A stretch of DNA of 41,030 nt from the NCBI GenBank assembly GCA_027490265.1, contig JAIXYL010000012.1, positions 1-41,030 on the forward strand, given 5' to 3'. A model generated the notes under the pieces. That model saw only the letters and a program-made list of their open reading frames with translations. It did not search any database and had not been told where the DNA came from. Shown here piece after piece: positions 17,518-32,672 of this stretch. The position numbers were made by a program, and so were the translations under genes. This DNA is from Sediminibacterium sp. (GTDB lineage Bacteria; Bacteroidota; Bacteroidia; Chitinophagales; Chitinophagaceae). Position 1 is the stretch's first letter. Each line of letters opens with the position of its first letter.

Positions 17518-18345
17518 ATGAAAAAACTGAACTGGAAACAAATACTGATTAATACTGCTTGGACCCTTTCTTTAATTGGGGTGTTGGTATTATTGGGTGC
17601 TGCCATCCGTCAGAAAAATAATCAACGCGTTAAAGGCGTAGTGGTTGACATCAAGGGTGCTGAAAAACATATGTTCATTGATGAACAGGATGTATTGCAT
17701 ATTGTGAATGATCCAGCGCCTGTGATTGGAAGACCCATGCGTGGCATTTCTTTAAGAAAATTGGAAACTAGGGTTAAAACAAATCCATGGGTCAGTAATG
17801 CCGAAATGTATTTTGACAACCAACGGGTTTTACAAGTCAGTATTGTTGAACGTGAACCCGTTGCCCGCATTTTTGAAACCAATGGCCAGTCTTATTATGT
17901 AGATACGGCCATGCACAAAATGCCTTTAAGCACAAAGCTAACAGCTAGAATACCCGTGTTTACTGGATTCCCTTCTAGCAAAGTGAAAGACACCGGGTTG
18001 TTGAAATCAGTGATACTGCTGTCTTCACTTGTGAATGCAGATTCTTTTTTAACCGCGCAAATTGCACAAATTGATATTGTATTGAATCGTCAATTTGAAT
18101 TGTTGCCTGTGATTGGAGACCATGTTGTGGTATTTGGCGATTCAAGTGATGCTGCTGATAAGCTGAATCGCTTGAAAGCATTTTATCAATCAGCTTGGTT
18201 ACAACATGGTATGAACACTTATAAAATAATCAGCTTACAATATAAAGGTCAGGTGGTTGGCATTAAGGAAAATACAAAAATTCTACCCCCAGACAACAAT
18301 ATTCCATTTCAAATTCCGTTAACAAGTAAACAAAATACTCTATGA
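17518..18345 (+). CDS. ftsQ: FtsQ-like cell division protein
   Basis: The 275-residue bitopic protein has a short cytoplasmic N-terminus, one membrane helix (about 13-29) and a periplasmic part beginning with a POTRA-like region (VKGVVVDIKGAEKHMFIDEQ through VSNAEMYFDNQRVLQVSIVEREPVAR), the layout of FtsQ/DivIB, which recruits FtsL and FtsB-like partners. The YVDTAMHKMPL stretch is the typical segment after the beta domain. Sequence conservation is low in this family, but the position before ftsA is canonical. The last four bases overlap the ftsA start (ATGA). Confidence 0.92.
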   Translation: MKKLNWKQILINTAWTLSLIGVLVLLGAAIRQKNNQRVKGVVVDIKGAEKHMFIDEQDVLHIVNDPAPVIGRPMRGISLRKLETRVKTNPWVSNAEMYFDNQRVLQVSIVEREPVARIFETNGQSYYVDTAMHKMPLSTKLTARIPVFTGFPSSKVKDTGLLKSVILLSSLVNADSFLTAQIAQIDIVLNRQFELLPVIGDHVVVFGDSSDAADKLNRLKAFYQSAWLQHGMNTYKIISLQYKGQVVGIKENTKILPPDNNIPFQIPLTSKQNTL

Positions 18346-19739
18346 ATCACAATGACGCACCCATCATTGTTGGACTGGACATTGGTACCACCAAGATTGC
18401 CGCAATTGCAGGTAGAAAAAATGAATATGGAAAGTTAGAAATTCTTGGATTTGGTCGTGCCAACAGCAACGGTGTATCGCATGGTCAGGTCTTGAATATA
18501 GACCAAACCATTAAAGCCATTCAGGCCGCGTTAGAAAATTGTGCACTCAGCAATCCTGATTTAGAAATCAATGAAGTTTACGTTGGTATTGCAGGCCATC
18601 ATATTAAAAGCTTGCAAACTCGTGGTGATATCGTTCGCCAAGATGCTGATATTGAAATCAGTAAGGCAGAAGTTGATCAGTTAATCAACAACCAACGCAA
18701 AACTTTTATTCCTGCTGGCGATCAAATCATTGATGTGATTGCGCAAGATTTTCATGTAGACAGCAACCAAAATATTAAAGACCCAATTGGATATAATGGT
18801 GTTAAAGTGGGTGCCAACTTTCACATTATCACCGGGGACAGAAATGCCATCCGTAATATCAATAGAGCTGTAACTAGAAGTGGATTACAAACCAAAGATT
18901 TGGTGTTACAACCCCTTGCTTCTGCAAGCGCTGTAATGAGCGATATTGATATGGAAGCAGGCGTTGCCATCTTAGACATTGGTGGTGGTACTTCTGATTT
19001 AGCTGTTTTCTATGAAGGTATTTTAAAACATACGGCAGTCATTCCTTTCGGTGGTGAAAATATTACCAATGATATTCGTTTAGGACTTGGTGTATTGAAA
19101 ACACAGGCAGAAGCCATGAAAGTACAATTTGGTTCTGCTTTGGCTGATGAAGCTAAAGCCAATGCCTATATTACCATTCCAGGTTTAAAGGGCATGCCTG
19201 CTAAAGAAATCAGTGTTAAAAGCTTGGCGCAAATTATTCAAGCCAGAATGGGCGAAATCCTTGATTTTGTTACCTATCATTTAAAGCAAGTTGGTTTAGA
19301 CCACCGTGCATTAAATGGGGGCATTATTTTAACAGGTGGTGGTTCTCAATTAAAACACTTGATTCAATTAACAGAATATACAACCGGATTAAATGCACGC
19401 ATTGGATTGCCAAACGAGCATTTAGCTGCCAACCATATTGACGAGTTAAAGAAACCAATGTATGCTACTTGTATTGGTTTGATCTTAAAAGGTTACAACG
19501 ATTACGATCATCAATACAAAGAATTCAAAGAGCAATTCATTAAAATGGATGTGCCTACTTCCTTAAAAAAGTCAGTAGCTGCACCCGTAAATGACCTACC
19601 AGTTGCACCACCAGTGATGCCAACTGCGCCAGTTGAAAAAGCCACTGTAGATGTTACTACCAGAGTCAAATTCTGGGACAAATTCAAAAACAATTTGATT
19701 GAGTTGTTTAAAGAAGAAGAAGACCAAGTTATCCGATAA
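18342..19739 (+). CDS. ftsA: FtsA, actin-like membrane tether of FtsZ
   Basis: FtsA is an actin-fold ATPase that anchors FtsZ filaments to the membrane and recruits late division proteins. Actin-family motifs are clear: the phosphate-1 loop VGLDIGTTKIAAIAG at residues 10-24, the SHS2/1C region following, the phosphate-2 loop AILDIGGGTSDLAVF near 209, and the adenosine motif ILTGGGSQLKHL near 329. The C-terminal FWDKFKNNLIELFKEEE is an amphipathic helix expected to bind the membrane. The 465 residues exceed the E. coli protein by about 45 because of a Pro/Ala-rich linker before that helix. A 44-bp gap separates it from ftsZ. Confidence 0.96.
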   Translation: MNHNDAPIIVGLDIGTTKIAAIAGRKNEYGKLEILGFGRANSNGVSHGQVLNIDQTIKAIQAALENCALSNPDLEINEVYVGIAGHHIKSLQTRGDIVRQDADIEISKAEVDQLINNQRKTFIPAGDQIIDVIAQDFHVDSNQNIKDPIGYNGVKVGANFHIITGDRNAIRNINRAVTRSGLQTKDLVLQPLASASAVMSDIDMEAGVAILDIGGGTSDLAVFYEGILKHTAVIPFGGENITNDIRLGLGVLKTQAEAMKVQFGSALADEAKANAYITIPGLKGMPAKEISVKSLAQIIQARMGEILDFVTYHLKQVGLDHRALNGGIILTGGGSQLKHLIQLTEYTTGLNARIGLPNEHLAANHIDELKKPMYATCIGLILKGYNDYDHQYKEFKEQFIKMDVPTSLKKSVAAPVNDLPVAPPVMPTAPVEKATVDVTTRVKFWDKFKNNLIELFKEEEDQVIR

Positions 19740-19783
19740 ATATCCAAGACCCATTTAATCCCTACTAACCCAAACCGTTCACT

Positions 19784-21682
19784 ATGATTCATTTTGATCT
19801 TCCTAAACAGAAATCATCCATTATTAAAGTATTGGGTGTTGGCGGAGGTGGAAGCAACGCAGTAAACTTTATGTTTGAACAAAACATCGAAGGCGTTGAC
19901 TTTATCATTTGCAATACCGATGCCAAAGCCATTGAACAAAGTAAAGTTCCCAATAAAATTCAATTAGGCCCACATTTGACCCAAGGTTTGGGCGCTGGTG
20001 CAAATCCTGAAGTAGGCAAAATGGCTACTGAAGAATCGTTGGATGAAATCAAACGCATTTTGGAAGTAAATACCAAGATGGCATTCATTACTGTTGGTAT
20101 GGGTGGTGGAACAGGTACTGGTGGCGCCCCCATCATTGCGCAAATTTGTAAAGACTTAGGTATTTTAACCGTTGGGATTGTAACCACCCCATTTGGTTTT
20201 GAAGGTCCGCGCAGACAATTACAAGCCGAATTAGGCATCAAAGCCTTAGAGCCATATGTAGATACTTTATTGGTGATCAGCAATGATAAGTTGCGCATGC
20301 AATACGGTAATTTAAAAATGCGTGAAGCATTTGCAAAAGCTGACAATGTATTGGCAACTGCAGCTAAATGTATCACTGATGTGATCAATAGCCGCGGCCA
20401 TATTATTGTTGACTTTGCCGATGTATGCACAGTAATGAAAAATGGTGGCGTAGCCATTTTGGGTAAAGCAGAAGTAGAAGGAGAGAATAGAGCACAATTG
20501 GCTATTGAAGAAGCATTGTCTTCTCCATTGTTAAACGACAGCGATATCAGAGGTGCTAAGTGGATTTTAATCAATATCAATAGTGCAGAAGGCGAACACG
20601 AATGCACCATGGACGAACTTGAAATCATCAACAATCATTTGCGTTTGCAAGCTGGTGAAGATGCAGACGTAATTGTTGGGATGGGCTATGATCCAACTTT
20701 AGATAAAAAAATTGGCATCACTTTGGTTGCAACAGGCTTTCAACAAAAAGATCCATTTGCAAAACCAGTAGCAGAAAAAAAGCCAGAAGCAAAGCCTGAA
20801 AAAATTGTCATGACTTTGGAAGTGGAGCAGCCAGTGAAAACCGTAGAACCTGCTGCAACAAATGTTCAAGCGCCCATCGTTGCTGAAACAACTGCAAACA
20901 ATAAAATTGTATTTGACATTGACACACCTGTAGTTGCAGAGCCAGAGCTATTGATCACTGATCATCAGCCTGAGCCAATGGGTGTTTATATGGAAACCCC
21001 AGCTATTACAGAAGCTGAGTTAGAATTGATGCCTACCTTACAAGGCCCTCCTGAAGTGCATGTTTTTGATGAGGTTGAAGAAGATGCACCCATTCCTACC
21101 GCAACACAACCTGCTTATTTTGGTAGCATGTTGAGTAAGCCAGCCAATATTTATGCGAGTGCTGCTTCAACGGCTTCACAAGAACCGAATGAGCCTACTA
21201 AACCTGAAGTGCCTACACAGCCGATCATTCAACCAAGACCTGAGCCAATTTATTCGGCGCCTGTTGTACCATCTACCCCTGCAACTCCGCCACCACCTGT
21301 TGAAGAAGAAACCAATTTATTCGACATGCAATTGGTAGAAAAGCCAGAAGGGTATCATACACCAGTAGACAACGCTGCACCAGCCATGTCTCATGCAGAT
21401 GCTGGGGACGATTATATGGATGATGTTGAAGAACAAAAAAGAAGAGCAGCAGAGCGGATTCAAAAATTTCGCAACCTGTCTTTCAATGTAAACAACTCAT
21501 CAGATATGAATGGTGAGTTTGATGCGGTACCGGCTTATGTTAGACGCAATATGGAATTGTTTGGCAATACCCTTACTTCTGTAGAAAATTTCTACAGCAA
21601 GTATACGGTTGGTAAAGATGAAAACAACCAAACCCAAATCAATTCTATCAATACTTTTTTAGATGGTAAAAAACCAGACTAA
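19784..21682 (+). CDS. ftsZ: FtsZ, cell division GTPase with very long C-terminal linker
   Basis: FtsZ forms the Z-ring. The tubulin-fold core covers about residues 1-326: VLGVGGGGSNAV, CNTDAKAI, the tubulin signature GGGTGTGGAP at about 107-116, and a T7-loop region with VDFADV. The remaining 300 residues are a low-complexity linker rich in Pro, Glu, Thr and Ala, so the protein (632) is far longer than E. coli FtsZ (383). A peptide resembling the conserved C-terminal partner-binding motif, VPAYVRR at 582-588, is not at the end but is followed by 44 further residues. The gene ends in a strong terminator. Confidence 0.96.
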   Translation: MIHFDLPKQKSSIIKVLGVGGGGSNAVNFMFEQNIEGVDFIICNTDAKAIEQSKVPNKIQLGPHLTQGLGAGANPEVGKMATEESLDEIKRILEVNTKMAFITVGMGGGTGTGGAPIIAQICKDLGILTVGIVTTPFGFEGPRRQLQAELGIKALEPYVDTLLVISNDKLRMQYGNLKMREAFAKADNVLATAAKCITDVINSRGHIIVDFADVCTVMKNGGVAILGKAEVEGENRAQLAIEEALSSPLLNDSDIRGAKWILININSAEGEHECTMDELEIINNHLRLQAGEDADVIVGMGYDPTLDKKIGITLVATGFQQKDPFAKPVAEKKPEAKPEKIVMTLEVEQPVKTVEPAATNVQAPIVAETTANNKIVFDIDTPVVAEPELLITDHQPEPMGVYMETPAITEAELELMPTLQGPPEVHVFDEVEEDAPIPTATQPAYFGSMLSKPANIYASAASTASQEPNEPTKPEVPTQPIIQPRPEPIYSAPVVPSTPATPPPPVEEETNLFDMQLVEKPEGYHTPVDNAAPAMSHADAGDDYMDDVEEQKRRAAERIQKFRNLSFNVNNSSDMNGEFDAVPAYVRRNMELFGNTLTSVENFYSKYTVGKDENNQTQINSINTFLDGKKPD

Positions 21683-22842: not shown

Positions 22843-23670
22843 TTAGGCTAAATCTCTTTTGCTGTGTACTTTAAAACAAATCAGCCAGATGATTAATGTG
22901 TAGATGCATGTGTAGATGATTTGTTCGCCTACCAATGTTAATGCCAATTCATAGCCTTCTTTGGCGTCTTTTCCAAAGTTGCCTGAAAAAGCGGGTGCTA
23001 CCAAGATATTATCGGATACCTCAAATGGTAAAAAACGGGTGATGGCAATTTTTTTGTATTTAAAATAAGCCACTAAAATATTCTCAATCACCAAATAGTA
23101 AAACAAGAAAATACCCAAGGCAATAAATGCTTTTTTCACCAAGTAGCCTAACAAAAATGCAATGGATAATTGTGCAAAAGTTTGCAAGTAAAACATAGGG
23201 ATATAATGCAACTGTTCGCCGATTCTGCCCATATTATCCGGATCTGCATAAATACCAAAAGCCAATGCCACCAACATGTACACCACCATTACTACAAATG
23301 AAATAATGGCCACGTCTATTAATTTGCTGCCCATGAATTCTTTCCTGCTCCAACCATCAATGATGTTTTGCTTATGGGTTCTGTAATTGTATTCGTTGGT
23401 AATCAGCATGATGACTAAAATGGCTGGAAGTAACACAAAGAATGAGGAAAAGTAAGCTACCGTATGAAAGGTTTCAGGAAATGCAAATGGATTACCCAAT
23501 AACATTTTGGCAATATTATTGGTCATTTCCTTTCCTTGTGTAAATTGAGTGTACACGTTATAGAACATATAGTTGATGCTGGGATAGGTCAACATCACAA
23601 TCACCAACATCCACCAAAACGCAGGATATCTTTTTATCTTGAGCCATTCAATTTTTAATAAAAGCAGCAT
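22843..23670 (-). CDS. ABC-2 type transporter permease subunit
   Basis: The 275-residue protein has about six hydrophobic helices in the pattern of ABC-2 permeases: an N-terminal KIEWLKIKRYPAFWW stretch before helix 1, a large loop, then paired helices, including LLPAILVIMLITNEYNYRTHKQNIIDGWSR, where the NEY.YRT.. signature of this family is seen. It lies 47 bp downstream of the ATPase gene on the same strand and presumably forms the transporter with it. The substrate is unknown. Co-orientation with the GH5 gene further upstream allows a three-gene operon. Confidence 0.85.
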   Translation of the reverse strand: MLLLLKIEWLKIKRYPAFWWMLVIVMLTYPSINYMFYNVYTQFTQGKEMTNNIAKMLLGNPFAFPETFHTVAYFSSFFVLLPAILVIMLITNEYNYRTHKQNIIDGWSRKEFMGSKLIDVAIISFVVMVVYMLVALAFGIYADPDNMGRIGEQLHYIPMFYLQTFAQLSIAFLLGYLVKKAFIALGIFLFYYLVIENILVAYFKYKKIAITRFLPFEVSDNILVAPAFSGNFGKDAKEGYELALTLVGEQIIYTCIYTLIIWLICFKVHSKRDLA

Positions 23671-23717
23671 AATATAGTATTTAGGAGAATAGGGTTAAAG
23701 TTGGGATGGTTCTTGAA

Positions 23718-24614
23718 TTAGTCGTTGGTTAATTCAAAGAATTTAGATTCTAAGCTTTTCTTTTTATTCAATAGTAAATTCAATGTAATGCCATGATTAA
23801 AACAGTGCTGGTTCACGGCTTCCATTTTGGCGGTACCAGCTTTAAAATGCACTTGTAAGCGCTGATTGTCTTCCTTTATAGAAAGCACATCCGGTATTTG
23901 GCCTACACATGATTTTAAAGCGTCCATATTTTCTGCACTCACTTCAACAATGTCTTCATTACTGAGCACTTCATCTACAGGTCCACTGGTCAATAAATTG
24001 CCTCTTTTTAAAATGGCTACATGGGTACATATTTTCTCTACTTCGTCGAGTAAGTGGCTGGCAATAATGATGGTAATGCCTTTGCTGGCTAAGCGTTTAA
24101 TCAATTCTCTGATTTCAAGGATGCCCACTGGGTCTAACCCATTGGTAGGCTCGTCTAATAATAAAACTTCAGGATTACCCAATAATGCCGCAGCTATGGC
24201 CAAGCGTTGTTTCATTCCCAAACTGTATGCACTAAACTTACTTTTTTTGCGCTCAGTTAGTTTTACAATTTCTAAAACTTCATCAATCGCTTGGTCATTC
24301 CCTCTTCCACTAATGGCTGAAGTAATTTTTAAGTTGTCAACCGCTGAAAGATAATGATAGAAATTGGGGGTTTCTAACAATGAGCCTATGCGCTTTCTAT
24401 CGGCTGAACTTGGCGATTGATTGAACCAACTGTAAGTACCTGTGTCGGCTCCTAAAACATCTAACACAATACTCATCATGGTTGTTTTGCCACTACCATT
24501 GGGTCCTAGAATCCCAAACACACTGCCTTTTGGAATGGTTAATGATACTTGCTTCAGTGCTTTTACTGCACCATAAGCTTTGCTTACATCGGTTAACTGA
24601 AGTACTGTTTCCAT
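23718..24614 (-). CDS. ABC transporter ATP-binding protein (ABC-2 type)
   Basis: The 298-residue ATPase has the Walker A motif GPNGSGKTT at about residues 38-46, the signature YSLGMKQRLAIAAALLG near 134, Walker B VLLLDEPTNGLDP and the switch His in IIASHLLDEVEKI. It belongs to the CcmA/GldA-like group that pairs with ABC-2 permeases such as the one just downstream. The C-terminal 80 residues are an accessory domain. It starts 45 bp after the GH5 stop, on the same strand. Export of a polysaccharide, lipid or drug are all possible; the sequence does not decide between them. Confidence 0.9.
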   Translation of the reverse strand: METVLQLTDVSKAYGAVKALKQVSLTIPKGSVFGILGPNGSGKTTMMSIVLDVLGADTGTYSWFNQSPSSADRKRIGSLLETPNFYHYLSAVDNLKITSAISGRGNDQAIDEVLEIVKLTERKKSKFSAYSLGMKQRLAIAAALLGNPEVLLLDEPTNGLDPVGILEIRELIKRLASKGITIIIASHLLDEVEKICTHVAILKRGNLLTSGPVDEVLSNEDIVEVSAENMDALKSCVGQIPDVLSIKEDNQRLQVHFKAGTAKMEAVNQHCFNHGITLNLLLNKKKSLESKFFELTND

Positions 24615-24659
24615 TTCGTTAATTTATGAATATCTGTGCTAAACGGATTGGGTGTTTGC

Positions 24660-25745
24660 CTAATCTTTTAACCAGGGTTTTAATTGTTTGATGACTTTAT
24701 CCCCTTTTAAAATACCAAACTTGTCATTATAATCCCATAGCATTACAGGGATGTCAAATTGTTTCATAATGCTGGTAATATCTCTAAGGTAAGCAGATTT
24801 GGCTTTTGCAGACGCTAAATTGATAACCCCCGTTTCTGTACAGATAAGTGGTAAATTCAGCTTATCAGCATCTGCTTTTATTTTTTTTATGCGTGAAAAA
24901 AGATAATCGTAATTAGACTCTCTAGGGAACCTTTCAAATTCTTTGATCACGTCTGAATCAGGCGCTGCACCCACTAATTCGGGCATTTTTCTTTTTTTGA
25001 ATGGATAAGGAAGCCCTACCATATAGGTTTTCTCCTTGGTCCAATCAGCCCCCTGGTGTGTAAAGACGTATGGCTCATAAAAATGAAAAGTATAAAGGAC
25101 TCTTCCATCATCTGAACTCAGTTTCCCCATGGAGAGCAGCTCGTTGATGCCATTGTAATTGGCACCTCCAATAATGAATATCCTATCTGGGTCTTCTTTT
25201 CTGAGTTCCCGAATTAAGGTAGTGGCAGCCGATTTCCAGACATCCATATCAGTGGTGGGCTCGTTATAGACTTCCAAAAACAATTTTTCATTTGAAAATT
25301 CACGCAAAAAATTGATGACCTGTTTCCAAATTTTAATGATTCGCTCGGTTTCTGTAGTCATATTTTGGTTGGTCAACTTGCCATAATGGTACACAATGAC
25401 CATTTTTAGATTCAATCTTCGGCAGTTCATATAGGTTTCATGCAATTTTTGCAGAATCTGTTCGTTTAATTGAATGGATCCCTCCCTCATGAAGTGATCA
25501 AAAGCCACTGGAATGCGAACTGTTTCAAATCCAGCCTCGGCAATTGATTCCAACATTGGGCGAATATTGGTCTTTAAAAGCTGCTCTGGACTGTTCCAAT
25601 GTTGCTCTAAAAGTGAAATATTCACCCCTTGACCTAGTGATTGAGCGATCTTGCGGAGTGCTTCGGGAGATTGGGTTTGAGCGGGTGTAAATCCTAGCCC
25701 AAACAGGAAAATGTAAATGGTGAGTACTAAAGTTCTTCGCAACAC
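24660..25745 (-). CDS. secreted glycoside hydrolase family 5 (cellulase-like)
   Basis: A 361-residue exported (alpha/beta)8 glycosidase with an N-terminal signal peptide (cleavage likely after about residue 22). GH5 features include GVNISLLEQHW, VRIPVAFDHF, the acid/base Glu162 in N-E-P, His221 and Tyr223 in FHFYEP, and the nucleophile Glu304 in CTETG, followed by LWDYNDKFG. Both catalytic glutamates are present, so it should act on a beta-1,4-linked glycan such as cellulose, glucan or mannan. It is divergently transcribed, 50 bp from a gene set encoding BcsB- and BcsA-like proteins, where a beta-glucanase such as BcsZ is a normal partner. The ATG at 25745 gives the complete signal peptide. 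Confidence 0.88.
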   Translation of the reverse strand: MLRRTLVLTIYIFLFGLGFTPAQTQSPEALRKIAQSLGQGVNISLLEQHWNSPEQLLKTNIRPMLESIAEAGFETVRIPVAFDHFMREGSIQLNEQILQKLHETYMNCRRLNLKMVIVYHYGKLTNQNMTTETERIIKIWKQVINFLREFSNEKLFLEVYNEPTTDMDVWKSAATTLIRELRKEDPDRIFIIGGANYNGINELLSMGKLSSDDGRVLYTFHFYEPYVFTHQGADWTKEKTYMVGLPYPFKKRKMPELVGAAPDSDVIKEFERFPRESNYDYLFSRIKKIKADADKLNLPLICTETGVINLASAKAKSAYLRDITSIMKQFDIPVMLWDYNDKFGILKGDKVIKQLKPWLKD

Positions 25746-25746
25746 G

Positions 25747-25775
25747 TTTTAAAATTAGTTTGAAAAATATTTTTA
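25747..25775. promoter_or_regulatory. putative overlapping divergent promoters between GH5 and kinase-like gene
   Basis: The 50-bp gap holds the perfect palindrome AAAAATATTTTT (25763-25774). Read rightward it gives TATTTTTA, and leftward TATTTTTC, each 7 of 8 to the -7 box TAnnTTTG. The gap is too short for independent promoters, so expression of the glycosidase and the four rightward genes is probably linked. The -33 boxes are weak. Confidence 0.3.
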
Positions 25776-25795
25776 CCAGTTGTAGATAAGTACCC

Positions 25796-27166
25796 ATGAT
25801 CGACTACCATCGGATTCCTTATGTAAATATAGACCGCGCTAGACTATCTAACGAATTAGTTAAGCGCGGGGCCTACTATTCTAATGTAGCCGTTTGGACT
25901 TTGATGTTCTCTCTGCCGCTGTTTTGGCTGTTAGATGTACTCTTTATGAAAGAAGACTGGGTCTTCTTGCTCATCATCCGATTAATCTTTTTTAGCATTT
26001 CTTATTTCTTTTACATTTTTGGCACCAAAAAGCGTTGGAGCCATGAACTGATATTAAACTTAGTCGTTGGGGTAAATATTGCATTGGTCTCAATGATTTG
26101 TGGGATTGTACCTGTTACATTGGCCATGCCGTATTATTTGTTGGCATCCATTATGATGTTGTTGCTCAACACTATCTTGTTTTGGCGCCCCTTATTTGCG
26201 CAGTTGCATGCTGCCATTTCATTTACCATCATTCTTTTCATGTATTCCTTGAATAACCAAACAGGCGGTTACAGCAGTTTGATTTCCAATGGGGGTGGGG
26301 TTTACTTTCTGGTTGCTGTGTTTTCAATCATGATTGCTTATAATCGCTACCAGATTGTAAAAAGAGAGACTGAAAAGAATCTGATCATTGAAGAGTCTAA
26401 CCGCCGTTTGCTAGAGCAAAACGAAAAAATTAATGACCAGCACCATTTAATTGAGGAAGCCAACCGTCGTTTGAAGGAATTGAGTGATTATCGTCAGAAT
26501 ACCCTCAATATCATGATCCATGACCTTAAAAACTTTATTGGATCTAACCAAATTTCCATTGACCTAATCAATAGAAAGAGCAGCAATTTAACCAGCGATC
26601 AAAAAGAAATTCTGAGCTATATCACGATGGGTAATGAAAAACTCCATTACCTGAGTCAAAAATTAGCAGAATCTGCAGAAGCAGATACTGGTAAAATTAC
26701 CTACCATATGGAACAGTTTGATATTATTCCTGAGGTAGAAAAAGCAGCTATAACGCTGGTAGATGCGGCCAGTATTAAGCAAGTAAACGTTCAAGTGCAT
26801 CTGTCGCCTTCTGAAGTAATGGTGAATATTGACAAAATATTTTTACGCCATATATTATTTAAGCTACTTTCTAACGTTATAAGGTTTATCCAAAAGGGTT
26901 CTTCGGTGAGTATTCATGCCAATGACCTTGATGGGGCTTGTATTATTGAGATCATTAATAAAACAAATACCCCAATCGGAATGGACAAATTGGATGAATA
27001 TTTTAGTCGATTAACCAATCCCAATCAGGCTGAACAGGTTACCAACCAGTCAGGAATGGGATTTTCCATTGCAAAGCAGTTAACCGAAGATATGGGTGGC
27101 TCGCTTACATATGAAAGCAATGTAACGGTTGGAAATTATTTTAAACTCAAATTCAAACTGGCTTAG
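25796..27166 (+). CDS. membrane histidine-kinase-like protein with degenerate ATP-binding site
   Basis: The 456-residue protein has about six N-terminal membrane helices (30-185) forming an integral sensor, a coiled-coil (about 190-235), an H-box IMIHDLKNFIGSNQ with His242, and a GHKL-like C-terminal domain. The ATPase part departs from consensus: the first N-box Asn is Lys356 (KLLSN360), the G1 box that normally carries D-x-G-x-G reads INKTNTPIG with Asn388 in place of Asp, while the G2 box GMGFSIAK is retained. It could be a weak kinase, a phosphatase or a signalling pseudokinase. It is the first of four closely spaced genes for a putative exopolysaccharide system (17-bp gap to the BcsB-like gene). 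No response regulator is nearby. Confidence 0.82.
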   Translation: MIDYHRIPYVNIDRARLSNELVKRGAYYSNVAVWTLMFSLPLFWLLDVLFMKEDWVFLLIIRLIFFSISYFFYIFGTKKRWSHELILNLVVGVNIALVSMICGIVPVTLAMPYYLLASIMMLLLNTILFWRPLFAQLHAAISFTIILFMYSLNNQTGGYSSLISNGGGVYFLVAVFSIMIAYNRYQIVKRETEKNLIIEESNRRLLEQNEKINDQHHLIEEANRRLKELSDYRQNTLNIMIHDLKNFIGSNQISIDLINRKSSNLTSDQKEILSYITMGNEKLHYLSQKLAESAEADTGKITYHMEQFDIIPEVEKAAITLVDAASIKQVNVQVHLSPSEVMVNIDKIFLRHILFKLLSNVIRFIQKGSSVSIHANDLDGACIIEIINKTNTPIGMDKLDEYFSRLTNPNQAEQVTNQSGMGFSIAKQLTEDMGGSLTYESNVTVGNYFKLKFKLA

Positions 27167-27183
27167 TTTAAATACCCGAAATC

Positions 27184-29205
27184 ATGAAAACAAAATCTTC
27201 CCTGCTCGTACTGTTCCTGCTGATAGCCGGTAGTATTATTGCCCAGGATTTCAAAACCCGTTCTCTGGAAGCAATGGGTTACAGAAATGAATCCATCATG
27301 GGGATTAATGGAGCGATCTCATACTTCTTGAAGGTGCAACCTAGAGATGATGTAGATCGTACCAATTTGATTCTTCAGGTAAAACCATCTCAGGTATTAA
27401 GAGAGGACATGTCTACCATTACGGTGTCGTTAAAAGACGAACCTGTTTATACCACCCGTTTGGTAGCCGATGCAATTGATTCTGTAATGACGATTGTGAT
27501 TCCTTTGAATAAACGTTATGTACAGGAAGATGGTCGTTTTATTAAAATGAGAATTGACGCCAAAATGGCGATGTCGGATGAATATTGTAAGGACGTTGAC
27601 AACCCGGCCATTTGGGTAACAGTGAGAAACTCTTCTTATTTGGAAGTGGTTAAACAAGACAGAACGACGTATTACCATAGTTTGAAAGAAACCATTTCAG
27701 AATTTAACTCAGTATCTACGCCTGTGAATGCTGATTTAGACGATTTAACGAGTGGTGCCATCGTCTTTGCTTTGTTAAAACAAAAGGGTGGTTTAGAAGA
27801 CATCGTCACCAATAACTATAGAAACACCGATTCATCTGTAGGCTCAACGGTATTGACTGGTTTGTACAATAAGCTTCCAGCTTATATTCAAGCACAATTG
27901 CCTGAGTTTAAAGCGGGTCAAGGTTTGGTTAAGAATATCGTCATGGATAATGGTGATTATGTATTTGTTATAACCGGTAAAGATCAAGAGGGTTATCGAA
28001 AAGCCATTTATACGCTCACGAATTATAAAATCATCAATGGTAGTTTTACGTATACAATGATAGTGGATGCAGGGCCGCCTGCTTATTTTGATAAGAACCA
28101 ATTACCAGTGGTATTTTCTTTGGAAGAACTGGGTGGTACTCCTAAGTTGATGGAAGGGATTGGGGCACTAAAAACCAACTATGCCTTCTCTTTGGCGGAT
28201 TACAATGCCATTCCTAAGAAATTGACCTTCCACTTAGAAGCCATGTTGTCTTTATTAAAAGAGGGCGACCGTGGATTCTTAAACGTCTACTTAAATGATA
28301 ACCTTGTATTCAGTACAGACTTACACGATAAAACCAGCTTTAATGGTGATATTGAGTTGAAGCCATACTTACTGACCAAGAATAACTCACTGGTTGTTGA
28401 AATGCGTTTCCATGGTGCGGGTGGTATTTGTAAGGAAGGTTTCTCTAACTTCTTTGGATTCATCGATACCAAAACTTCTAACCTTGTATTCTCAGGTGAA
28501 AAAGTGAATGAGTTCTATAACTTCTTTAACTATCCCGGTGAATTTAGAAAGAAAGCTTTGCGTTGTATTGTTACGCCTAGCTTGATGCCATATTTGGCGC
28601 CATCTTTGGGTGAATTGGTATATCAATTAAATACAGCAACACTTGCAGCTAACTACTTATTCATTCCTGAATTGGTGTCTTCTGACAAAGCCAATTTGAA
28701 TGATATGGCCAATATGAATGCCATTGCTTTGTTGCACAGAAATGATCCATTGATTAAGAATTTTGAAAAGAATTTGCCCGTACAGTTTAACAGAGATTTC
28801 CAGTTGTACAAAGACATTAGTGGCGAAACATCCTATTCCATCAATGACTTTTCCAATTCAGGTATTGCACAGATTTTCCGACAGGGTAGCTCTACATTCT
28901 TATTGGTCAGTGCACTCGGCGACTCTAGTATTAGTGATGCATTTGAAGGGGTAATCAAGAGTTTTGGATCACAATACTCGGCCATTGAAAGTAATGTTTG
29001 TATTGCCAATAGTAAAGGTAAGAGTAACTTCTTCTTTAAACTGCCCGATAACGCAGGGTTGGTTACCTATCGAGGCGATAAAAATAATTTAGCACTGCTT
29101 TGGAATAAATACAAATACTTTATGTTGGGTGGTTTGGCCATCTTGTTGGTACTTGGATTTATCTTCATCAGAAAGCGTGTGAAGAAGTCTCAAGAGATTG
29201 TGTAA
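27184..29205 (+). CDS. BcsB-like periplasmic subunit of a polysaccharide synthase
   Basis: BcsB proteins sit in the periplasm, anchored by one C-terminal helix, and guide the nascent glycan out of the BcsA channel. This 673-residue protein has a signal peptide (about 1-20), an early family block with CKDVDNPAIWVTV (Cys135, Asp137, Asn140, Trp144), repeated beta-sandwich and ferredoxin-like stretches including a second sandwich with KLTFHLEAMLSLLKEGDRG and VEMRFHGAGGICKEG, and a single C-terminal helix at about 645-661 followed by basic residues. That matches BcsB topology and length (usually about 670-780). The gene is 27 bp upstream of the GT2 gene. A BcsC-type outer membrane gene is not present in the window. 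Confidence 0.8.
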   Translation: MKTKSSLLVLFLLIAGSIIAQDFKTRSLEAMGYRNESIMGINGAISYFLKVQPRDDVDRTNLILQVKPSQVLREDMSTITVSLKDEPVYTTRLVADAIDSVMTIVIPLNKRYVQEDGRFIKMRIDAKMAMSDEYCKDVDNPAIWVTVRNSSYLEVVKQDRTTYYHSLKETISEFNSVSTPVNADLDDLTSGAIVFALLKQKGGLEDIVTNNYRNTDSSVGSTVLTGLYNKLPAYIQAQLPEFKAGQGLVKNIVMDNGDYVFVITGKDQEGYRKAIYTLTNYKIINGSFTYTMIVDAGPPAYFDKNQLPVVFSLEELGGTPKLMEGIGALKTNYAFSLADYNAIPKKLTFHLEAMLSLLKEGDRGFLNVYLNDNLVFSTDLHDKTSFNGDIELKPYLLTKNNSLVVEMRFHGAGGICKEGFSNFFGFIDTKTSNLVFSGEKVNEFYNFFNYPGEFRKKALRCIVTPSLMPYLAPSLGELVYQLNTATLAANYLFIPELVSSDKANLNDMANMNAIALLHRNDPLIKNFEKNLPVQFNRDFQLYKDISGETSYSINDFSNSGIAQIFRQGSSTFLLVSALGDSSISDAFEGVIKSFGSQYSAIESNVCIANSKGKSNFFFKLPDNAGLVTYRGDKNNLALLWNKYKYFMLGGLAILLVLGFIFIRKRVKKSQEIV

Positions 29206-29232
29206 TTGGTCCCATAAAAATCCGTAGCGTCT

Positions 29233-31104
29233 ATGCCAGTTTGTGCCTTGAATAATATGATTAGTGTGGGCTTGTTCACCACGGCCAAACTGGAAGAAAT
29301 TGACGTTATTGCAGACGAGTTTGACTATGCGCAAATTAAAGCTGCACTGAATTTTGGGTACCTTACCAGAAAAGCATACGTATCATTTTTAGAGCGTTCA
29401 GGTTTTCCATTGGTTGACGTTAGAAACGAAGTATTAGATGAAAGCTTTGTTGAACAATGCGACCTTTTGCACCTGAACGCTTTTTTATATTTGCCAATGC
29501 GCAACGATGGAAAGGGTAATTTGCTGGTAGCAGCAGCCGATCCAATGGACGAGCGTTTGCAAGGAATTTTAGAGATCAAATTCAATACTAAAATTAAATT
29601 AGTTGCTGCTTCTGATCTAGACATCACTTGGATGGTGCACAAATTAAGAGGGGAGTTTTATGTGAAAGAGTCGGTATTTAGTTTGATGCGTAAGGATCCA
29701 GACAGTTCAGGACTAACCACTTTTACAGACGCACAGTTGTCGTTTATATTCTTAGCAGTGGCTTTTGCATTGCTATTTTTGACCATTAATTTCGTCAACA
29801 GCTTCATTTTCTTCAACCTATTCTTCAGTTTCGTTTTTCTGTTCTCCATTATATTCAAATTATACATTGCCTTAAAAGGCTCTAAGTATGAGTTGGTGGA
29901 AGTAGTTACCAAAGACGAAGTAAGGGCAGTAAAGAATGATACTTTACCAGTATATACCATTTTATTGCCAGTATATAAAGAAGATAAGCTCATCCGAAAA
30001 CTGATTTGGAATCTTAGAAGTTTGGACTATCCTCGTGGAAAATTAGATGTAAAATTATTGATTGAGGAAGACGACGATAAAACCCTCAATGCGGTAAGAA
30101 ACCTTGATTTCCCGGCTAACTTTGAAACCATTGTAGTGCCTTTCCATATGCCTAAAACCAAGCCCAAAGCTTGTAATTACGGTCTATTCTTTTGTAAAGG
30201 TGTTTACTTAACTATTTATGATGCAGAAGATGTACCCGATTCTGATCAATTAAAAAAAGTAGTGAGTCTGTTCAGAAAACTTCCCAAAGATTATGTGGTA
30301 TTGCAAGGGGCGTTGAACTACTTTAACAAAAATGAAAACCTGTTAACCAGAATGTTCACCCTTGAATATTCTTACTGGTTTGATTATATGTTGCCTGGCT
30401 TACAATCTCTGGACGTTCCTATTCCTTTAGGCGGCACATCCAATCATTTTAAATTAGACAAACTGAAAGAGTTGGGCGGATGGGATCCCTTCAACGTTAC
30501 TGAGGATGCGGATTTGGGCGTACGGGTATTTGAAAAAAGATATAAGGTAGGGGTGGTGAACAGCACTACTTTGGAAGAAGCCAATAATGAACCGTTCAAT
30601 TGGATCCGTCAGCGTTCAAGATGGATTAAGGGGTATATGCAAACCTTGCTAGTGCATATGCGCAATCCTGTTCGATTGGTGAACAAAATTGGCTGGAGAG
30701 GATTTTTTGGATTCAACTTCTTCGTTGGATTCACACCGATTACTTTTTTATTGTATCCTATATTGTTGGGCTTTTATATTGTGTACATCGTTTTTGATTT
30801 ACAAACGGTTCGTATTTTATTTCCAGATTGGGTATTGTACATCTCCATTTTCAATTTCGTAGCTGGTAATACATTAATGATATATGTGAACATGTTGGCT
30901 GTATTTAAACGCCGGTTTTATGAGTTGATTTTATTTGCCTTGATGAATCCTTTCTATTGGCTGATGCATTCAATTGCAGCTTACAAAGGATTGTGGCAAT
31001 TAATTTACAAGCCATTTTATTGGGAAAAAACCAATCATGGATTAACCAAAATGTCTCACTCTGCATCAGCAGCTGCTGCTACTGCAAGTGCAAATGAAGT
31101 ATAA
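29233..31104 (+). CDS. processive-type GT2 glycosyltransferase with N-terminal GspE/MshEN-like domain
   Basis: The 623-residue membrane enzyme has three parts. Residues about 30-140 resemble the N-terminal domain of GspE/MshE-type ATPases (FPLVDVRNEVLDESFVE, then NLLVAAADPMDE). Two helices (about 168-212) precede the GT-A catalytic domain: LLPVYKED, DAED at 330-333 (the metal DxD), PLGGTSNHF at 398-406, T-E-D at 423-425, and QRSRW at 460-464, the acceptor-site motif of cellulose and hyaluronan synthases. About four more helices follow (490-590). No PilZ domain is present. It likely makes and translocates a beta-linked polymer with the BcsB-like partner. The sugar is unknown. Its stop overlaps the next ATG (TAATG). 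Confidence 0.85.
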   Translation: MPVCALNNMISVGLFTTAKLEEIDVIADEFDYAQIKAALNFGYLTRKAYVSFLERSGFPLVDVRNEVLDESFVEQCDLLHLNAFLYLPMRNDGKGNLLVAAADPMDERLQGILEIKFNTKIKLVAASDLDITWMVHKLRGEFYVKESVFSLMRKDPDSSGLTTFTDAQLSFIFLAVAFALLFLTINFVNSFIFFNLFFSFVFLFSIIFKLYIALKGSKYELVEVVTKDEVRAVKNDTLPVYTILLPVYKEDKLIRKLIWNLRSLDYPRGKLDVKLLIEEDDDKTLNAVRNLDFPANFETIVVPFHMPKTKPKACNYGLFFCKGVYLTIYDAEDVPDSDQLKKVVSLFRKLPKDYVVLQGALNYFNKNENLLTRMFTLEYSYWFDYMLPGLQSLDVPIPLGGTSNHFKLDKLKELGGWDPFNVTEDADLGVRVFEKRYKVGVVNSTTLEEANNEPFNWIRQRSRWIKGYMQTLLVHMRNPVRLVNKIGWRGFFGFNFFVGFTPITFLLYPILLGFYIVYIVFDLQTVRILFPDWVLYISIFNFVAGNTLMIYVNMLAVFKRRFYELILFALMNPFYWLMHSIAAYKGLWQLIYKPFYWEKTNHGLTKMSHSASAAAATASANEV

Positions 31105-32672
31105 TGAAGTTTACAAGTCAACAAATACGTGTCATGTCTTTACTACTGGTGATTTACTATGTAGTGTTGTCTTGGCTATTGAATCGTATAGGCTTTGAAC
31201 ATTCAGAAAGATTGTTTTATGCAGAAAAGCTCAAACTACTTTTTGAGTATAACGAAAATACATTATTGACTTTAGGTACAACATTTCCAACTACCTCTTT
31301 TTTAATCAATGTTGTTTTTTCGCCCTTCGGATATTTGTTTGCCCCAGTTGCATCCTCCATTGTATTGATGTCGTTTTTGTTTTTCTTTATCGCCAAGGAC
31401 ATTAATGGATCGGCATTGCCTCATCGAACCTTGTTTTTATCATTATTGGCATTATTTCTAGTACATCCTCAGTTTGTTTACGCTGCAATCAGTGGCAGAA
31501 ATATTGCCGCTATCATGTTGTTTACCTACTTGCTCTTTAGAAGTTTGTTTTTCTATTATCAAAACCAAACAACTTATTATTTATCGTTGGCGAGTTTGTA
31601 TTTGGGTGCTTTAATTTTTTCTGAGATTAAATTTCTTTGGATGATTTTAGGCTTCTTGCCTTTCGTGGTATTGGTCTCTATTGAGGGGATCAAAACCGCT
31701 AAGGGAGAACCAATGGTCTTTCAATATTATCAGGCATTAAACAATCGATCGCTTAGGCGTAAATTGGTGAATAGAACCGTGTCGTTGTATTTTATTTTGT
31801 ACTTATTGCCTTTGGCTGCGGTGTTCTTATTCAGAGTTCTGAATCAGTCGCACGCTGGGGATCCAACCTATTTCTTAAGCAGTCAGTATTCAAACTGGCG
31901 TGTAACAGGAGTGTCTACCATTACCAATATCTTGGAGCGTGGATCTGGTGCGAATTTGAGTAAGCAAACCCAAATTATTTTTCCACTCTTCACCATTTTT
32001 TTGGCGCCCATTTTTATATCGGCAATGCTTTTGTTTAAGGGAAAATTGTATGAGCTGTTGACGATTTTTACACCATTGATTTTTACTTCAATTGTACTAA
32101 TTGATATTCAATATTATTTAACTACCGAGTATTTTGTAATCATTCCTGTTTTGGCATTCATTGGATTTAATTTTGCGTCTGGTGTGAAACTCAACCGTTT
32201 TATGTCTTCTATCATCATCTTGATAGGATTAGGACTGACCCTTATTGGTGGATTCTATTATTTTAAAGAGACTTCTGATTTTGAAGAGCAGCGATTCACC
32301 AAAATGATTACTGAAACCACCAATTGGGGGACTATTAAAAAAGATTCTGAAGAAAAAGTTTTGGCCGATTATATTGCTACAGTAAAATCCGCTAGCAGAC
32401 CAGTGTTGATAGATGATGCGGCGGCATATGGTGTGGTAGCCCATTTACCAACCTTGGAAGGTTTGGTGATGCCTTTGCAAAAGAATTTCATCACAGTAAT
32501 TGAAAACCCAGCACTCTCTGTAGAATACATACTCATCGCCAAGCGCCACAATTTGAAGCACAACTTTACAGCGATGAATGCTTACAATATGATCGTCATG
32601 AGAGATCGGTTAAACCTAAGGTCTAACCGAGTCTTTGAAACAGAAAACTGGATTGTGTATTCAATTCGTTAG
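31104..32672 (+). CDS. polytopic membrane protein, unknown function, possibly GT-C-like
   Basis: The 522-residue protein has about ten hydrophobic helices over residues 10-385, then a soluble C-terminal part of roughly 130 residues (from about 390) ending in WIVYSIR. An early loop after helix 1 has acidic residues (FEHSERLFYAEKLKLLFEYNE), a layout recalling GT-C-type lipid-linked-sugar transferases, which carry acidic catalytic residues there and a C-terminal extracytoplasmic domain, but I find no decisive motif. It is translationally coupled to the GT2 gene (1-base overlap), so it probably works in the same polysaccharide pathway, for example in modifying or handling the polymer. Its last four bases overlap the convergent stop of the FadN-type gene. 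Confidence 0.6.
   Translation: MKFTSQQIRVMSLLLVIYYVVLSWLLNRIGFEHSERLFYAEKLKLLFEYNENTLLTLGTTFPTTSFLINVVFSPFGYLFAPVASSIVLMSFLFFFIAKDINGSALPHRTLFLSLLALFLVHPQFVYAAISGRNIAAIMLFTYLLFRSLFFYYQNQTTYYLSLASLYLGALIFSEIKFLWMILGFLPFVVLVSIEGIKTAKGEPMVFQYYQALNNRSLRRKLVNRTVSLYFILYLLPLAAVFLFRVLNQSHAGDPTYFLSSQYSNWRVTGVSTITNILERGSGANLSKQTQIIFPLFTIFLAPIFISAMLLFKGKLYELLTIFTPLIFTSIVLIDIQYYLTTEYFVIIPVLAFIGFNFASGVKLNRFMSSIIILIGLGLTLIGGFYYFKETSDFEEQRFTKMITETTNWGTIKKDSEEKVLADYIATVKSASRPVLIDDAAAYGVVAHLPTLEGLVMPLQKNFITVIENPALSVEYILIAKRHNLKHNFTAMNAYNMIVMRDRLNLRSNRVFETENWIVYSIR

Follow-up and report, generated by a model that had tools for sequence, protein, structure and literature searches.

The window analysed here is a stretch of 41,030 nucleotides from a Sediminibacterium sp. 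of the Chitinophagaceae (contig JAIXYL010000012.1 of assembly GCA_027490265.1, 98% complete in 189 contigs). It carries a four-gene core, in the order kinase–BcsB-like–GT2–membrane protein, which is conserved as a unit in Bacteroidota and whose products, with a divergently encoded glycosidase, very probably synthesise and export a surface polysaccharide. The core opens with the gene for a membrane histidine kinase (25796..27166, forward strand; HATPase_c, 8e-14), followed on the same strand by genes for a BcsB-like periplasmic protein with a signal-peptide-like start and a C-terminal transmembrane (TM) anchor (27184..29205; PF03170, 4e-22), a processive-type GT2 synthase with an N-terminal MshEN-type domain, TM helices and a catalytic domain (29233..31104; PF13632, 3.7e-20) and a polytopic membrane protein with a C-terminal soluble domain (31104..32672), for which an AlphaFold2 model compared with the Protein Data Bank (PDB) points to a GT-C fold. 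The last two genes are coupled by a TAATG overlap. A GH5 glycosidase with a signal-peptide-like start is encoded on the reverse strand (24660..25745; PF00150, 4e-33), and its GTG start at 25745 is separated by 50 bp from the divergent kinase start at 25796. A preliminary description of the window proved accurate on the genes, the 50-bp gap and the TAATG overlap, the seven open reading frames (ORFs) which it listed being present with the same ends.

Relatives were collected by a pattern scan of one genome per species over 84,980 species, which yielded 291 homologous loci, of which the best 80 were kept; counts of the core order, the kinase and GH5 take in only the loci with enough flanking sequence. 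The core order is complete in 63/63 such loci, which come from Chitinophagaceae, Sphingobacteriaceae and Cytophagales, while the genes taken singly are present in 65/65 (kinase), 71/71 (BcsB-like) and 75/75 (membrane protein), and GH5 lies divergently upstream in 47/63. Conservation of the neighbourhood had been proposed in the preliminary description as a check on its reading, and the adverse outcome, a neighbourhood not kept in related genomes, did not occur: the set is not a chance assembly. The GT2 proteins of the best 80 loci are 60–97% identical; the other core proteins are less conserved, with identities as low as about 23–34% in the loci of Sphingobacteriaceae and Cytophagales. More distant Bacteroidota hold related loci with GT2 proteins 44–57% identical (L125–L128), all four core genes being present in L125 and L126, while no kinase is recognisable in L127, and the kinase of L128 is of another kind, with a PAS domain, its GT-C-like gene lying below the Pfam cut-offs and only bordering on PMT families.

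The synthase, its partners and the nature of the polymer

The catalytic part of the synthase is of the processive type, the motifs YDAED, VTEDADLG, QRSRW and GGTSNHF being identical in 80/80 GT2 proteins, and its closest PDB neighbour is BcsA; the best NCBIfam models, PgaC and CelA, all score far below cut-off. In a maximum-likelihood tree of 27 GT2 domains (NfrB and PgaC, two of 29 rows, had no hidden Markov model match and were dropped), E. coli BcsA and a rhizobial CelA-like protein form a clade (branch 100/100) apart from the GT2 family of the locus, and the Listeria GT2 falls in another part of the tree, likewise apart from it. Paralogues without the N-terminal domain (31–33% identical; G053, a second match in G047, G350, G591 and G558) were not counted. 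Judging by its processive motifs, the synthase would polymerise a beta-linked chain and translocate it through its own TM channel. That the product is a beta-glycan, as proposed in the preliminary description, is a conjecture for which single relatives hint at mannose as much as at glucose: GH26 and GH113 enzymes are mainly beta-mannanases, and mannose-linked neighbours occur in one relative each, as a ManC-like gene (L113), a GH113 gene (L134) and a GH26 gene (L125). A mannan was accordingly considered as a possible product.

Two further GT2 arrangements were seen among the fetched loci. An MshEN-less relative (L132:7014-9537) adjoins an apparent UDP-GlcNAc 2-epimerase gene, named by eye, a hint of an N-acetylmannosamine (ManNAc) polymer. 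A protein of about 1150 residues with a GT2 domain (L151:12866-16333), presumably of the NodB-GT2-GH18 type, is found again in many of the family-sample genomes, and in G052 its gene lies about 5 kb from a gene of the barrel family described below.

The BcsB-like protein has hydrophobic segments at residues 5-23 and 644-662. The GH5 protein finds its closest PDB matches mostly among endoglucanases (CelC, 1cec, 2.8e-26), the Glu of the NEP motif and that of C-x-E-x-G are each present in 49/49 ungapped rows (of 51), and it is likely to be a secreted polymer-trimming hydrolase.

For the 522-residue membrane protein Pfam gives nothing, even at E up to 1, and NCBIfam nothing above cut-off. Its AlphaFold2 model (predicted local distance difference test score, pLDDT, 85.5; predicted template-modelling score, pTM, 0.87), when compared with the PDB, gives 12 matches at E<=0.001, all of them by title DPY19, ArnT or oligosaccharyltransferase chains, with DPY19 (1.4e-5) and ArnT (4.7e-5) the best. 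The TM-scores of 0.41–0.49 by query length are modest, as is expected because GT-C members are distant from each other, and the modelled fold is that of a GT-C glycosyltransferase. The preliminary description had the protein rightly as polytopic and its gene as coupled to that of the synthase by the overlap, and missed this fold. Candidates for the catalytic acid of the first periplasmic loop are E41, present in 79/79 ungapped rows, and E35, in 68/79, and a GT39-annotated gene in the same place on a Geobacillus plasmid matches the profile of the family (E 1e-8 over 383 columns). Since GT-C enzymes take their sugars from polyprenyl-phosphate donors on the outer side of the cytoplasmic membrane, side-chain addition by this protein would be periplasmic. 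The first membrane protein of the Listeria pss operon was considered as a further GT-C relative and ruled out (hhalign probability 0.5).

The MshEN domain and the control of the synthase

Synthase-dependent polysaccharides are a standard example of control by cyclic di-GMP (c-di-GMP). The GT2 of the locus carries, ahead of its first membrane segments, a domain of about residues 7-140 which matches MshEN at residues 57-140 (PF05157, 9.6e-9, 35.6 bits against a cut-off of 23.1) and whose profile matches PilB N-domains (1.8e-6), MshE (5htl, 0.015) and XpsE (0.03), so that it may be assigned, by sequence, the MshEN fold, a c-di-GMP receptor fold. According to passages of Wang et al. (PMC5013675), the MshEN ligand site consists of two 24-residue motifs, RLG...Q, and a perfect motif may not be needed for binding. 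The relaxed form of the published motif occurs in 0/80 Bacteroidota GT2 proteins, while among the comparison proteins it is found twice in E. coli NfrB, twice in an alphaproteobacterial protein (L134), once in Geobacillus (L113) and not at all in Frigoribacterium (L135); the strict form fails in all of them, NfrB included. The Arg and Gly of RLG are absent from both motifs in every Bacteroidota orthologue (0/84, made up of the 80 loci and L125–L128, with two rows gapped in motif I and L128 poorly aligned), while all 84 rows retain the turn Gly of motif II. The RLG Gly is a better mark than the Arg, because NfrB, L134 and the Geobacillus protein each lack one Arg yet keep both Gly. To judge from these alignments, an ancestral c-di-GMP switch has lost its ligand signature.

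The supply of the ligand also appears reduced. Neither GGDEF nor EAL nor PilZ gives a match anywhere in the analysed genome, and GGDEF has none in 33/34 other holder genomes (completeness given for 14). In a phylum-wide sample GGDEF is found in 0/11 GT2-positive genomes vs 189/381 others (Fisher p 0.0009, uncorrected for kinship); G350 holds a twelfth protein within the limit of E 1e-30, one that lacks the N-domain and was not counted, and this genome too is without GGDEF. The preliminary description had argued for a system outside c-di-GMP control: the genome-wide search bears out its remark on PilZ and diguanylate cyclases, but it overlooked that the synthase itself belongs, by its N-terminal domain, with a family of c-di-GMP receptors.

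The kinase, with hydrophobic segments at about residues 31-180, is a plausible controller of the system. In an alignment of 65 of 78 cluster members kept by length (64 core kinases and one other kinase of L103), the H-box His is conserved in 61/65 and the N-box Asn and G-box Gly each in 65/65. Six Bacteroidota loci have a stand-alone receiver gene next to the core, namely L085 (L085:5232-5615) and L092, both of Fibrisoma, and L125–L128 (L125:6929-7294, L126:13608-13994, L127:6737-7153 and L128:10533-10976), and on an alphaproteobacterial plasmid (L134) a 309-residue receiver protein lies beside a kinase; two further receiver matches, in L103 and L065 among the Chitinophagaceae and Mucilaginibacter loci, are not adjacent to the core. 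The likeliest reading is that control once exerted by c-di-GMP has passed to a histidine kinase, at times accompanied by a stand-alone receiver.

An unlinked locus for a predicted outer-membrane barrel

Genes for a predicted barrel protein of 278–380 residues lie between BcsB and GT2 in L082 (Pedobacter), L083 (Spirosoma), L085, L092, L125 and L126, with related genes near the core in L127 and L128. The scanned members of this family (A3) belong to no Pfam family and its profile has no PDB relative; the barrel call rests on a signal-peptide-like start, an alternating pattern and a C-terminal aromatic residue, read by eye. A profile built from eight of these proteins detects two strong copies in the analysed genome (E 9e-53 and 8e-38), both on contig 10 and unlinked to the core, in a cluster of the order barrel, AXE1-family esterase, acyltransferase, barrel, AXE1-family esterase (G000:C10:2338-7061; L149:2326-8427). 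Tandem copies occur in L150 and L161.

The distribution of the family follows that of the synthase. It is present in 11/11 tested holder genomes outside the profile (14/14 with the profile suppliers), and in a family sample free of profile members it is found in 17/147 genomes, 15/15 of the GT2-positive vs 2/132 of the GT2-negative (Fisher 1e-18), the two exceptions (G044 and G121) having the barrel without GT2 and being congeners of positives. Within one genus the counts are 11/12 vs 1/49, the exceptions (G603 and G576) having completeness values of 64% and 76%; when only the 36 genomes with a completeness of at least 90% and a contamination of at most 5% are taken, the counts become 9/9 vs 0/27. 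In the phylum sample the barrel scores at least 100 bits in 11/11 GT2-positive genomes, four of which supplied profile members, and in 0/381 others, the next genome reaching 73; at most three (GT2) and five (barrel) candidates were scored per genome, so that misses are possible. All 25 fetched unlinked loci were chosen for the presence of the barrel gene, which an AXE1-family esterase gene adjoins in 22/25 and an Acyl_transf_3 gene in 10/25 (17/20 and 6/20 without the five loci that trained the esterase and acyltransferase models), Pfam having been run on eight proteins from L149 and L152. Some Mucilaginibacter-type loci have a tetratricopeptide repeat (TPR) protein gene after the barrel cluster (L152, L153, L170 and L171).

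From these patterns the family probably forms an outer-membrane barrel that serves as the polymer exit, and the simplest reading is that the unlinked locus supplies pore and acetylation. Since an acetyl-xylan-esterase-family protein and an O-acyltransferase are encoded with the barrel, the product is probably O-acetylated. The preliminary description had noted the lack of BcsC; on the present evidence the outer-membrane exit is probably unlinked, not missing.

Proposed mechanism, alternatives and relation to known systems

Taken together, we consider it probable, on balance, that the locus encodes a synthase-dependent system for an acetylated and side-chain-decorated polysaccharide in which a kinase has taken the place of c-di-GMP, where we infer the product, the direction of transport and the target of the kinase. 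The GT2 would pass its growing chain to the periplasm, where the BcsB-like protein would take it up and the GT-C protein would add side residues from a lipid-linked donor. The chain would then leave through the outer-membrane barrel, whose gene is linked to the core in some lineages and lies on contig 10 here; the esterase-family protein and O-acyltransferase encoded beside the barrel would account for O-acetylation, and the GH5 enzyme may trim or release chains. Control would most likely come from the histidine kinase, which in several lineages is joined by a stand-alone receiver.

Several observations weigh against this interpretation. The BcsB-like protein has no PDB match by sequence. NfrB binds c-di-GMP though it lacks the motif-I Arg, so that loss of the Arg alone would prove little, and one holder genome (G072, with locus L111) does have a GGDEF match (G072:C54:11247-11708, 3.6e-30). 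Four of the 65 aligned kinases, all of them core kinases (L060, L064, L071 and L082), have the H-box His replaced by N, N, Y and R respectively, and these may therefore not autophosphorylate. The loci fetched from Chitinophagaceae and Mucilaginibacter have no receiver gene next to the core, for which reason a path from kinase through receiver to synthase is a hypothesis drawn from relatives. The genomes compared are not independent, which makes the Fisher values look stronger than they are; most of the GT2-positive genomes in the genus sample are on the large side; and the company of esterases could also mean that the barrel serves uptake or degradation.

Other readings concern the control of the synthase. 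It might still respond to c-di-GMP or another cyclic dinucleotide through a diverged MshEN site, given the fold match, the statement in Wang et al. (PMC5013675) that motifs need not be perfect and the one GGDEF-positive holder; the absence from all 84 orthologues of both the RLG Gly and the Arg, when the Gly persists in both motifs of NfrB, L134 and L113, makes this very unlikely, as do the lack of any relaxed motif in the 80 proteins (NfrB and L134 having two and L113 one, but L135 none, and the strict form failing in all) and a genome without GGDEF, EAL or PilZ matches. That the kinase acts only on transcription, through a DNA-binding response regulator encoded elsewhere, with MshEN a structural remnant and the synthase under no allosteric control, has not far short of an even chance of being right: it would account for the missing receiver genes in Chitinophagaceae and Mucilaginibacter and for a variable N-domain, in which 8-15% of columns reach 95% identity vs 69% in the catalytic domain. 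Against it stand the receivers beside the core in L085, L092 and L125-L128 and the 309-residue receiver of L134, as well as the retention of an N-domain with invariant positions (K36, L39, G42, R46 and others in 20 aligned sequences) despite loss of the ligand site. A further reading, tentative and less probable than the transcriptional one, is a rewired switch: in lineages that lack diguanylate cyclases MshEN would have become the docking site for a kinase-controlled receiver, so that a two-component phosphorelay would switch the synthase directly by protein contact, not through a second messenger or transcription, while a dedicated GT-C enzyme would branch the chain in the periplasm.

Other alternatives concern the assignment of the genes themselves. 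The unlinked barrel, esterase and acyltransferase genes might belong to polysaccharide uptake or remodelling and co-occur with the synthase through shared ecology or descent, as their separate location in Chitinophagaceae beside AXE1-type esterases and their tandem copies in some genomes would allow; we find this doubtful, because other lineages have a gene of the same barrel family within the operon, flanked by BcsB and GT2, and because presence and absence agree within a single genus. It is unlikely that the locus is simply a cellulose (Bcs) system whose synthase has diverged and in which GH5 stands in for BcsZ. With Bcs the locus shares a processive GT2 nearest to BcsA in the PDB, a glycosidase near endoglucanases and a BcsB-like periplasmic partner which, from its PF03170 match, hydrophobic N-terminus and C-terminal anchor, would qualify as a BcsB subunit; however, the GT2 lies outside the BcsA/CelA-like clade, PilZ is absent, no BcsC-like TPR-barrel is recognised among the locus proteins, the glycosidase is GH5 and not, as BcsZ is, GH8, a GT-C partner and a kinase are present, and the neighbours in single relatives are mannose-linked.

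The E. coli NfrB-NfrA-YbcH system likewise secretes a polysaccharide by means of a GT2 fused to MshEN. In the parts of PMC8669469 that describe it, the MshEN domain of NfrB is C-terminal and binds c-di-GMP, and the exit is a TPR-barrel. Here the domain is N-terminal, the GT2 parts are 23% identical over 324 positions and no NfrA-like gene is recognised at the analysed locus, while the nfrB-nfrA-ybcH operon has neither BcsB nor GT-C. A GT2 synthase, a BcsB-annotated protein and a further membrane protein are shared with Listeria PssA-E (L140, which we take to be the pss operon) and B. subtilis YdaJKLMN, where YdaM and YdaN are presumably the GT2 and BcsB-like proteins. L140 also encodes a DUF2334 protein and a diguanylate-cyclase-annotated protein, neither of which is among the locus proteins scanned, the Listeria GT2 lies elsewhere in the tree, and Listeria and Bacillus have no outer membrane. 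According to passages of PMC13274460, YdaJ is a putative glycosyl hydrolase and YdaK a c-di-GMP receptor. The Listeria product is given, in part of PMC5039582, as poly-beta-1,4-ManNAc with terminal alpha-1,6-Gal, and is therefore a precedent for a decorated chain made by a GT2/BcsB system. The gene set is thus neither a Bcs nor an Nfr system and falls outside Pss/Yda as well, and no description of such a set was found in open-licence full texts, titles and the starts of abstracts, which is weak evidence of absence.

The nearest counterpart outside the phylum is on plasmid pEF60063-1 of Geobacillus stearothermophilus, which is typed as conjugative and carries at L113:4372-11109 a ManC-like gene and then BcsB, MshEN-GT2 and GT-C in the same order, the GT2 being 51% identical over 86% of the query. 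It differs from the analysed locus in its one relaxed c-di-GMP motif, a Pfam MshEN match below cut-off and the ManC-like gene, and it has no adjoining kinase or GH5 and no outer membrane to cross. The gene system can thus be carried by mobile elements and exists in a Gram-positive bacterium, and the BcsB–GT2–GT-C set therefore either predates the phylum or has been transferred between phyla. In the alphaproteobacterial locus L134 the BcsB match is sub-threshold (0.012), no GT-C is recognised and neither the BcsB nor the membrane-protein model finds anything, so that this locus supports only the GT2, the kinase and the receiver. Locus-derived models recognise no BcsB or GT-C partner in Frigoribacterium (L135) or Methylobacterium (L137), and in Nonomuraea (L136) the ORF caller missed even the GT2 gene, all that is seen upstream being a PMT_2 match below threshold.

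With the receptor domain kept, the ligand site erased and the cyclase mostly lacking, the question of what replaces c-di-GMP becomes directly testable, while the pairing of a processive synthase with a GT-C enzyme could plausibly yield branched chains with no need for lipid-linked repeat units. Phylogenetic profiling provides a candidate outer-membrane component and an acetylation module. If correct, the proposal would supply a mechanism for an exopolysaccharide (EPS) of Bacteroidota that are common in soil and fresh water, among them Mucilaginibacter, which has been described as an EPS-producing genus. M. pedocola holds the core (L091); the EPS text of its genome paper (PMC6260751) assigns EPS to an ABC-transporter-dependent pathway and names no BcsB- or cellulose-synthase-like gene.

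Beyond the GH5 gene the reverse strand encodes an ABC ATPase (23718..24614; PF00005, 9.3e-27) and its partner, an ABC-2 permease (22843..23670; PF12730, 2.7e-11). The preliminary description counted this pair in the gene set; its view of a non-standard BcsA/BcsB-like secretion locus stands, as a conserved unit, but the pair was ruled out as a member, the permease lying near the core in only 27/59 loci and the ATPase in 28/59, and both are local neighbours. Upstream, at 18342-21682 of the window, are genes that were read as ftsA and ftsZ, and an ftsZ-like gene is found upstream in 21/80 loci.

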